Below are positions 33,797 to 42,420 of a stretch of 64,000 nt of DNA, piece by piece. The DNA comes from Thermococcus barophilus MP. Its GTDB lineage: Archaea > Methanobacteriota_B > Thermococci > Thermococcales > Thermococcaceae. A model generated the notes under the pieces. It saw nothing but the letters and a program-made list of their open reading frames with translations, searched no databases and had not been told where the DNA came from. The translations under genes and the position numbers were made by a program. How positions within the stretch are numbered: the first letter of the stretch is position 1; each line of letters opens with the position of its first letter. Location of the stretch: assembly GCF_000151105.2 (NCBI RefSeq), contig NC_014804.1:620001-684000 (forward strand), read 5' to 3'.

Positions 33797-33853
33797 CACC
33801 TCAGACAAGACCGATATCATCACTGTTCAGCCGGTTGATCCGTCATCATTGGT
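33797..33853 (-). ncRNA. C/D box sRNA guiding 2'-O-methylation
   Basis: On the minus strand all four boxes occur with ideal spacing: C box ATGATGA (33849-33843), 12-nt guide, D' CTGA (33830-33827), 3-nt spacer, C' GTGATGA (33823-33817), 12-nt guide, D CTGA (33804-33801). The flanks can form a short ACC/GGT terminal stem. A TATA-like CTTTTTATT (33876-33868) stands about 25 bases before the predicted 5' end. The D' guide CGGATCAACCGG is complementary over 11 bases to CCGGUUGAUCC, the conserved 5' end of archaeal 16S rRNA. The N+5 rule places methylation on the first U of that UU. The D guide (TATCGGTCTTGT) has no target I can name. Exact ends are estimated. Confidence 0.88.
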
Positions 33854-41402: not shown

Positions 41403-41550
41403 TTGCTCACCTCCTATTAATATTAAAAATGAACATAACAAGCTAACACTTTTTTGTGAGAGTTATTTAAAAACCTTATCATTCAAAAATTCGGGCTGTT
41501 TCATAGGTGGTGACAAATGGAATTCTTGGATTCTTTTGTTTTGCGTAATT

Positions 41551-41558
41551 TTTAAATA
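41551..41558 (+). promoter_or_regulatory. TATA box of the structured RNA
   Basis: TTTAAATA lies 24-31 bases before base 41582, exactly where the sequence changes from AT-rich to GC-rich. This is the spacing of an archaeal promoter for a stable RNA. Confidence 0.55.
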
Positions 41559-41581
41559 GTTTTTGGATAATTGTTTTTATT

Positions 41582-41767
41582 GGTGTGGCAGTCTCCGGTA
41601 TGTGGGGTTTTAAGCCCGAATGGAGACTGGAAAACGGAAGATGTGGGGAGTCCCCGTTCCCCCCGAAAGCCACCCGATGAGCAGAGGGTGGAAGGTTATC
41701 CGCTACGACACTCCCAAAAGTAGCGGATAACCAGAACGGTGATTCTCCCAGTATATGAGTATACTGG
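41582..41767 (+). ncRNA. Unassigned structured, GC-rich RNA locus
   Basis: About 186 bases can fold into a series of hairpins. CAGTCTCC/GGAGACTG (41589-41596 with 41622-41629); a GGGGA/TCCCC element near 41645-41655; CCACCC/GGGTGG (41670-41675 with 41686-41691); a perfect 13-bp stem GGTTATCCGCTAC/GTAGCGGATAACC (41694-41706 with 41720-41732); and CCAGTATA/TATACTGG (41748-41755 with 41760-41767). In AT-rich hyperthermophiles such GC islands are usually stable RNAs. The forward frame reads ENGRCGESPFPPKATR and stops at 41680, so a relic of the 3' end of an IS605-type tnpB gene with its guide-RNA scaffold is an alternative. It is not tRNA, rRNA, SRP RNA or RNase P RNA by any motif I can see. Strand is inferred from the promoter. 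Confidence 0.6.
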
Positions 41768-41783
41768 ATGGATACAATATGTC

Positions 41784-42398
41784 CTAAAGCTCGCCTTCAA
41801 TTTCTTTCCTTATTCTATCTATGAACTCCTCTACATATTTATGTCTCTCAAGTGCCATTTCTTTAGCGGTTTTTGTATACATCAAATCTTTAAGCTTCAG
41901 AATTTTCTCCTCAAAGTGCTTGAGGGAATACTCTATGCTCCTTCCGTGCTCTCCGGAGTACATGAAAACTCTTGCAATTCCTATCGCTCCTATTGCATCA
42001 AGCTTATCCGCATCACTGAGAATTTTTGCTTCAAGAGTTTGAGGTTCTGGTGGTTTTGAAAAGCGATGTGCCTCAATTGCATGGGCAACCTGGTCAGTCT
42101 TTTCATATCCCAGACCTTTAAGAAAACGTCTTGCAATCTTTGCCCCCTCTTTAGCATGGTCTTCAATCTTTCCTTTGCTTTCAAGAGGTCTTGCAATATC
42201 ATGTAAAAGCGCAGCCAAAGCCAAAACCTCTAAATCTGCACCCTCTTTTTTTCCGATGTGCATGCAAAGTGCAAGGACTCTTTCAGTGTGTGAAAACCCG
42301 TGTGTGCCCTCTCTTTCAAAAAAGTTTTTGGCAAATTCCTCTGCCTTTTTGATTATAGTCAAGCTTTTCTCATCTTTTATGAAGTCTTCGATTCTCAT
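41784..42398 (-). CDS. HD-domain phosphohydrolase
   Basis: The 204-aa protein has the HD metal-binding pattern: H in HGFSHTERVL, the HD pair in AALLHDIARP, a further His in HAIEAHRF and the Asp in LSDADKLDAIGAIG. This is the YpgQ/YedJ-like group, which hydrolyses nucleotides or phosphodiesters. ATG 42398 has GGTGG seven bases upstream. It is the last gene of the operon that starts with HPS-PHI; the gap to the preceding gene is 22 bases. Confidence 0.9.
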   Translation of the reverse strand: MRIEDFIKDEKSLTIIKKAEEFAKNFFEREGTHGFSHTERVLALCMHIGKKEGADLEVLALAALLHDIARPLESKGKIEDHAKEGAKIARRFLKGLGYEKTDQVAHAIEAHRFSKPPEPQTLEAKILSDADKLDAIGAIGIARVFMYSGEHGRSIEYSLKHFEEKILKLKDLMYTKTAKEMALERHKYVEEFIDRIRKEIEGEL

Positions 42399-42420
42399 TC
42401 CAACCACCTTACCTTTCTGA

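Follow-up and report, generated by a model that had tools for sequence, protein, structure and literature searches.

The GC-rich, multi-hairpin stretch investigated here in Thermococcus barophilus MP lies within an insertion that, judging from its homologues, is almost certainly a solo, IS607-derived copy of an RNA family already published from P. abyssi. The explanation that accounts best for the data, and which is probably correct, is that the insertion is a non-autonomous miniature IS607 element whose sole product is a stand-alone omega (guide) RNA. Positions are those of the window, namely the whole 64,000-nt stretch of DNA that was analysed, unless a genome coordinate is given, and the genome from which the window comes is denoted G000.

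The locus shows a sharp change in composition, since the G+C content is 22% at 41520-41579 and 50-62% at 41580-41759, and the GC-rich part, which begins about 25 nt downstream of the TTTAAATA box at 41551-41558, stops near 41765. The sequence-only reading of this DNA had described a switch from AT-rich to GC-rich sequence about 25 bases past a TATA-type box and a set of perfect hairpins including one 13-bp stem, and both descriptions were confirmed, with stems of 8, 5, 6 and 13 bp being located (Table 1). The strand folds with -83.4 kcal/mol, compared with -58.5 ± 4.2 kcal/mol for dinucleotide shuffles (z = -5.9), and none of the 200 shuffles was as stable as the native fold. The island sits between two putative genes, for an HD-domain-like and a KH-domain-like protein, both on the minus strand. 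In the Rfam search of the window, no match to the feature passed the gathering thresholds, nor did E<=10 bring up a convincing one; elsewhere in the window, an ordinary C/D-box RNA, sR14, was recorded on the minus strand at 33799-33853 (52.8 bits).

Table 1. Features of the inserted element and its neighbourhood, in window coordinates.
Feature	Position	Strand	Remark
KH-domain-like protein gene (putative)	from about 41402 down	-	own reading of translation
Whole inserted element, miniature IS607 derivative, GG(G) left end to GG right end	41493-41739	+	247 bp
IS607 left end (GGGCTGTTTCATAGGTGGTGACAA...)	41493-41545	+	aligns with full-length IS607 left ends upstream of tnpA
TATA box of RNA promoter (TTTTTAAATAG)	41549-41559	+	same position in most copies
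Predicted transcription start	41580	+	homologous to mapped 5' end of P. abyssi sRk52 (1104056; PMC3124441)
Helix 1 (P0 of sRk48/52), CAGTCTCC/GGAGACTG, conserved loop GGTATGTGGGG..TAAGCCCGAAT, 3-bp inner helix	41589-41629	+	8 bp, arms 41589-41596/41622-41629; 97% of cells paired in 21 solos
tnpB 3'-end remnant, frame KRKMWGVPVPPESHPMSRGWKVIRYDTPKSSG*, no gene of its own	41632-41730	+	matches TnpB C-terminus ...LKMWGVPVPPES...GKVIRYD...KSSG*
Helix 3 (P1 of sRk48/52), GGGGA/TCCCC	41645-41662	+	5 bp, arms 41645-41649/41658-41662; almost invariant
Helix 4 (P2), CCACCC/GGGTGG, loop GATGAGCAGA = candidate kink-loop	41670-41691	+	6 bp, arms 41670-41675/41686-41691; compensatory changes in 3 of 6 pairs
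Helix 5 (P3), stem GGTTATCCGCTAC/GTAGCGGATAACC	41694-41732	+	13 bp, arms 41694-41706/41720-41732; compensatory changes in 9 of 13 pairs
Right end of element, AGAACGG	41733-41739	+	conserved to GG in nearly all copies, then divergence
Would-be guide, host DNA directly 3' of element (TGATTCTCCCAGTATATGAG)	41740-41759	+	guide use is a proposal
Hairpin CCAGTATA-TGAG-TATACTGG, host flank outside element	41748-41767	.	found at related species' empty site
HD-domain-like protein gene (putative)	41784-42407	-	own reading of translation

The boundaries of the insertion were obtained from congeners in which the same locus is empty. In two of them (G006, loci L028/L122; G003, locus L123), the flanks are kept and the island is absent, and the element therefore corresponds to 41493-41739. 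The empty-site sequence of this locus is TTCGGGRTGATTCTCCCAGTATATG; at the junction, the G006 site reads ...AAAAATTCGGGG followed by TGATTCTCCCAGTATATGGGTATACTGG, the G003 site reads TTCGGGA followed by TGATTC, and the occupied site in the window reads ...TTC-GGGCTGTTTC...ACCAGAACGG-TGATTCTCC. Because the target and the junction consist of a run of G and A, the ends are known to about ±3 bp. All copies open with GG(G/A)CTGTTTC and close with ACCAGAACGG, and their flanks are unrelated. A GG-containing target, GG at both ends and the absence of a target duplication were all found (copies GG(R)CTG...AACGG; empty sites TTCGGGR followed by TGATTC), and the insertion therefore fits IS607, since (G)GG targets, GG ends and the lack of a target duplication are known features of IS607 transposons (PMC6188088). 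The hairpin CCAGTATA-TGAG-TATACTGG, which had been counted as the last one of the feature, must be assigned to host DNA because it is present at the empty site of the related species.

A second copy in the same genome (L030, about G000:C1:1935433-1935693, minus strand) has a near-empty counterpart in congener G003, which is without the element and shows a difference of a few bases in a purine run at the junction. Both own-genome insertions (window 41739-41740 and L030) differ from the congener empty sites by 2-3 junction bases in the G/A run, owing either to slippage or to a feature of the insertion reaction, and an exact GG-core reconstruction from the empty sites, which fitted only to ±2-3 nt, was rejected. 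Being absent from two congeners, the insertion at 41493-41739 is considered young.

The homologue search in 61 relatives revealed many dispersed copies of one family, which were of two types, full-length and solo. Full-length elements start with GG(R)CTGTTTC, usually followed by an ORF of 200-220 aa and then by a TnpB ORF of about 394 aa, which stops 9 bp short of the end of ...ACCAGAACGG and whose last codons coincide with the RNA sequence. In these relatives, the small ORF was identified by NF033518 as the IS607 transposase (233.8 bits, cut-off 110), and the TnpB ORF was recognised as RNA-guided TnpB (NF040570, guided_TnpB, 187.1 bits, cut-off 100). Solos, including the window element, are about 230-270 bp long and have the same two ends and almost none of the body; they consist of about 50 bp of left end, the TATA box, helix 1 and then the last tnpB codons through the right end, and about 84 nt of the TnpB-coding sequence that separates helix 1 from helix 3 are left out. 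In the window element, the left end, the TATA box, five RNA helices and the right end are kept, tnpA and almost all of tnpB are gone, and both ends are common to it and to elements encoding IS607 TnpA.

Concerning the parent transposon, the IS605 type suggested by the sequence-only reading was rejected, as the full-length relatives encode the TnpA of the IS607 family (serine TnpA, GG ends) and no Y1 transposase was found in the own genome. The frame ending ENGRCGESPFPPKATR had been taken to recall a tnpB 3' end; the relation to the tnpB 3' end is real, but this frame, although open, is the wrong one, and the diagnostic frame is KRKMWGVPVPPESHPMSRGWKVIRYDTPKSSG*, which is open down to its stop codon and lost upstream. 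In the same way, the suggestion of a solitary omega-RNA-like relic without its nuclease was correct as to the relation with the tnpB 3' end and the absence of the nuclease, but the element is no one-off, since it belongs to a dispersed and recently mobile family.

Some variants were observed among the relatives. The elements L041 (LE 1490), L059, L062, L046 and L069 have the same ends and TnpB, with a short MPKATFVISEETLEEFKKLAKKRYGDKRGVLSVAIEEAIKDWIKK-like ORF replacing the IS607 transposase; the ribbon-helix-helix similarity of this ORF is weak, below Pfam cut-offs, and these elements are possibly TnpA-less TnpB elements with a regulator. Three solos of G062 (L107, L108 and L109) have another left end, a variant promoter region and the helix 1 region ATGTCCCC, and perhaps arose independently or through recombination of the mini-element.

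Two copies of the family in genome G012 (L008 and L036; G012:C1, 985798 and 1104050) coincide with the P. abyssi RNAs sRk48 (5' end 985805) and sRk52 (5' end 1104056). Each can be aligned to the full length of the window copy, and the homology includes stems P0-P3. We infer that G012 is P. abyssi GE5 from both coordinates and from the adjacent tRNA genes, which stand beside the 1104050 copy as in a table of PMC3124441. By this homology, the window RNA is a new copy of a published, unexplained RNA family that is absent from Rfam; the earlier remark that it matched no nameable RNA class was accurate for Rfam but overlooked the publication of sRk48/sRk52 in 2011. Phok et al. (2011; PMC3124441) reported ten copies from four other species besides the six of P. 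abyssi, and described RNAs that are transcribed and processed, with covarying stems P0 and P3. According to the same report, primary sRk52 is 177/180 nt long and begins 22 nt past a BRE/TATA box, a processed form of 130 nt is without helix 1, and sRk52 is bound by L7Ae in vitro, the P2 kink-loop being the proposed site; a resemblance to partial IS607 OrfB 3' ends was recorded there, and the function was left open. Since the corresponding position is homologous to the sRk52 5' end, the window RNA is predicted to start near 41580.

The promoter attributed to the structured RNA by the sequence-only reading was recovered as a TATA-type box, and most of 45 listed copies showed a TATA match. At the place of the solo TATA box TTTTTAAATA, tnpA-bearing elements have another sequence, the TATA-like TTTAAAT of these elements being closer to their left end.

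The alignment of 21 solo copies (A1) showed pairing in 96.7% of cells, in agreement with RNAalifold. Two-sided changes were counted in 14 pairs and 64 cells, compared with 8.4 and 19.1 (±4) in shuffles, in an alignment of related copies in which the variation of helices 4 and 5 is partly shared with tnpB-bearing elements and thus inherited from such ancestors; the covariation signal was lost when partners were slid by one column. Helix 1 behaves differently between the two types: full-length elements commonly have CTGTGCCC/GGGCACAG, which codes for the zinc-finger region of TnpB, whereas CAGTCYYC/GGRGACTG is the common form in solos, with the loop GGTATGTGGGG..TAAGCCCGAAT common to both. Pairing is about 96% within each group and 73% when solo and full-length strands are mixed. 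As helix 1 was kept even though both of its strands changed, it would be difficult to account for without a working RNA.

These data bear on the possibility that the hairpins act only as DNA, for example as transposase recognition structures, with an irrelevant transcript. The location of helix 5 at the right end of the element would agree with such a role, which is nevertheless quite improbable, because helix 1 is internal, because the IS607 TnpA is a serine recombinase and the ends of its elements carry short directly repeated motifs and not hairpins (PMC6188088), and because the TATA promoter yields RNA in P. abyssi (PMC3124441). The H/ACA-like idea of the earlier reading, or any other rRNA-modification guide RNA, could draw on the kink-loop-like GATGAGCAGA in helix 4, but direct reading of the 15 nt that follow helices 1, 4 and 5 on the 3' side found no ACA, the Rfam search at E<=10 gave no convincing match, and the RNA is mobile and not conserved in position, so that this identity is scarcely credible.

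Clear solos were present in about 31 of the 94 genomes of the family according to our reading of the match list, and cognate TnpB was present in 45 of the 94. The latter was found in 22 of 31 solo-bearing genomes and in 23 of the 63 others (Fisher p = 0.002, uncorrected for kinship). In G113, three solos at unrelated sites are identical over 264 bp, and another trio comprises two identical copies and a third with 98.5% identity; such identical copies at different sites may be taken as indirect support for transposition by TnpA in trans. In the own genome, a search with the cognate TnpB gave no match of this type at E<=1e-30, and no cognate TnpA was found; based on this, the window copy is probably dormant at present, although possibly still transcribed. 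A full tnpB sharing the sequence is carried by relatives. The own genome contains four PF01385 loci of another TnpB type (L031-L034; G000:C1:1706999, 1792450, 759648 and 492091), among which L034 has an internal deletion and L032 a broken frame.

The lack of cognate TnpB and TnpA in the own genome and the youth of the insertion would agree with a passive, MITE-like relic, in which the RNA has no current role and structure and promoter persist only through recent insertion. Structural decay also did not differ significantly between TnpB-containing and TnpB-less genomes (p = 0.39), and the faster decay without TnpB that was seen by eye in L052, L053 and L063 was discarded accordingly. We consider this explanation possible yet doubtful: solos as a whole have preserved the promoter and the re-paired helix 1, and therefore RNA expression mattered for the spread of the family; in addition, the P. 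abyssi copies are transcribed and processed (PMC3124441).

P. abyssi, in which no TnpB closer than about 39% identity was found, also raises the explanation of a domesticated host ncRNA, which in TnpB-less species would have taken another partner, such as L7Ae, and a role as a regulator. The in vitro binding of sRk52 to L7Ae and its processing to the form without helix 1 (PMC3124441) point in this direction; however, L7Ae binds many kink-turn RNAs, and the copies stand at non-orthologous sites and are missing from close relatives, unlike a fixed host gene. Domestication thus appears unlikely.

The reading of the element as the source of a stand-alone omega RNA is consistent with the conserved RNA secondary structure and with the homology between its scaffold and the 3' end of a tnpB from the matching family, although the cognate TnpB is not found in the same genome in the case of G000. 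In the mechanism that we propose, an IS607 TnpA would act in trans on the ends of the mini-element, and TnpB from another copy would take the solo RNA as its omega RNA scaffold. Host DNA just past the right end (41740-41759) would serve as the guide and the G-rich left flank as the target motif; known IS607 TnpBs use the G-rich target motifs AGGAG or GAGGG (PMC11061315). TnpB loaded with the solo RNA would then cut insertion-free alleles beside the G-rich motif, by which the copy would persist, a form of retention modelled on the proposal for autonomous TnpB elements. The first 18 nt of the would-be guide have a perfect match in the two congeners whose locus is unoccupied, and this match is automatic, as any insertion gives one.

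Several facts were counted against this mechanism, among them the lack of a significant difference in structural decay and the partly inherited covariation. P. abyssi makes the RNA though, like the own genome, it is without a cognate TnpB, and the published lengths of sRk52 leave no full guide there: our arithmetic from the published 5' end and lengths (PMC3124441) places the 3' end only 1-4 nt beyond the element, and therefore little guide is retained in the TnpB-less P. abyssi. We give about even chances to the proposal that the solo RNA can guide TnpB supplied in trans. A broader and slightly more tentative suggestion is that the Thermococcales harbour a thriving family of nuclease-less guide-RNA parasites, in which mini IS607 elements would have acquired a promoter and a newly paired helix 1 and would depend on the TnpA and TnpB of others, using the nuclease either to secure their own retention or to drive into unoccupied sites.

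Should solo RNAs be accepted by TnpB in trans, every copy would offer a guide, already reprogrammed by nature, for an IS607 TnpB from a hyperthermophile, and the target of each copy would be readable from its empty site. The family also raises the testable question of whether a transposon can persist by encoding only the guide RNA for the nuclease of another.

Among known systems, the non-autonomous relatives of IS200/IS605 (PATEs and MITEs) lack a transposase and keep their ends, and stand-alone omega RNAs have been reported for IscB systems. The window element resembles these as a transposase-less element with its ends kept and, in the IscB case, as a guide RNA, but it differs in belonging to IS607 with a serine transposase, in being archaeal, in its replaced helix 1 and in the promoter placed before the RNA. 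The omega RNA/reRNA of IS607 TnpB, e.g., that of ISFba1 (PMC11061315), is similar in that the RNA overlaps or follows the tnpB 3' end, with the guide at the right end and a G-rich motif at the left end; in contrast, the window element has its own promoter, no tnpB in cis, the stretch of about 84 nt of TnpB-coding sequence missing and no RAGATH-18 match in the Rfam search. The HgcC RNAs of T. kodakarensis and P. furiosus, which are in Rfam, are likewise thermococcal ncRNAs from TnpB-type genes, being sense transcripts from TnpB-type "transposase" genes, in T. kodakarensis TK0298, TK0495 and TK0850 (PMC4247193). The Rfam search detected no HgcC match in the window, and the idea that the TnpBs of the own genome (L031-L034) have HgcC as their RNA was rejected for want of a match at the gathering threshold; the family may represent the omega RNA of another TnpB type. 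The closest counterparts are sRk48 and sRk52, which share with the window copy a homologous sequence, the four main stem-loops P0-P3, a TATA promoter, repetitive loci and the relation to the IS607 OrfB 3' end, and differ from it in species and locus (PMC3124441). Their loci are not described as IS607 insertions or omega RNAs in the main text of that report, and these RNAs, which have had no assigned role since 2011 and have no Rfam family, now gain a likely identity.
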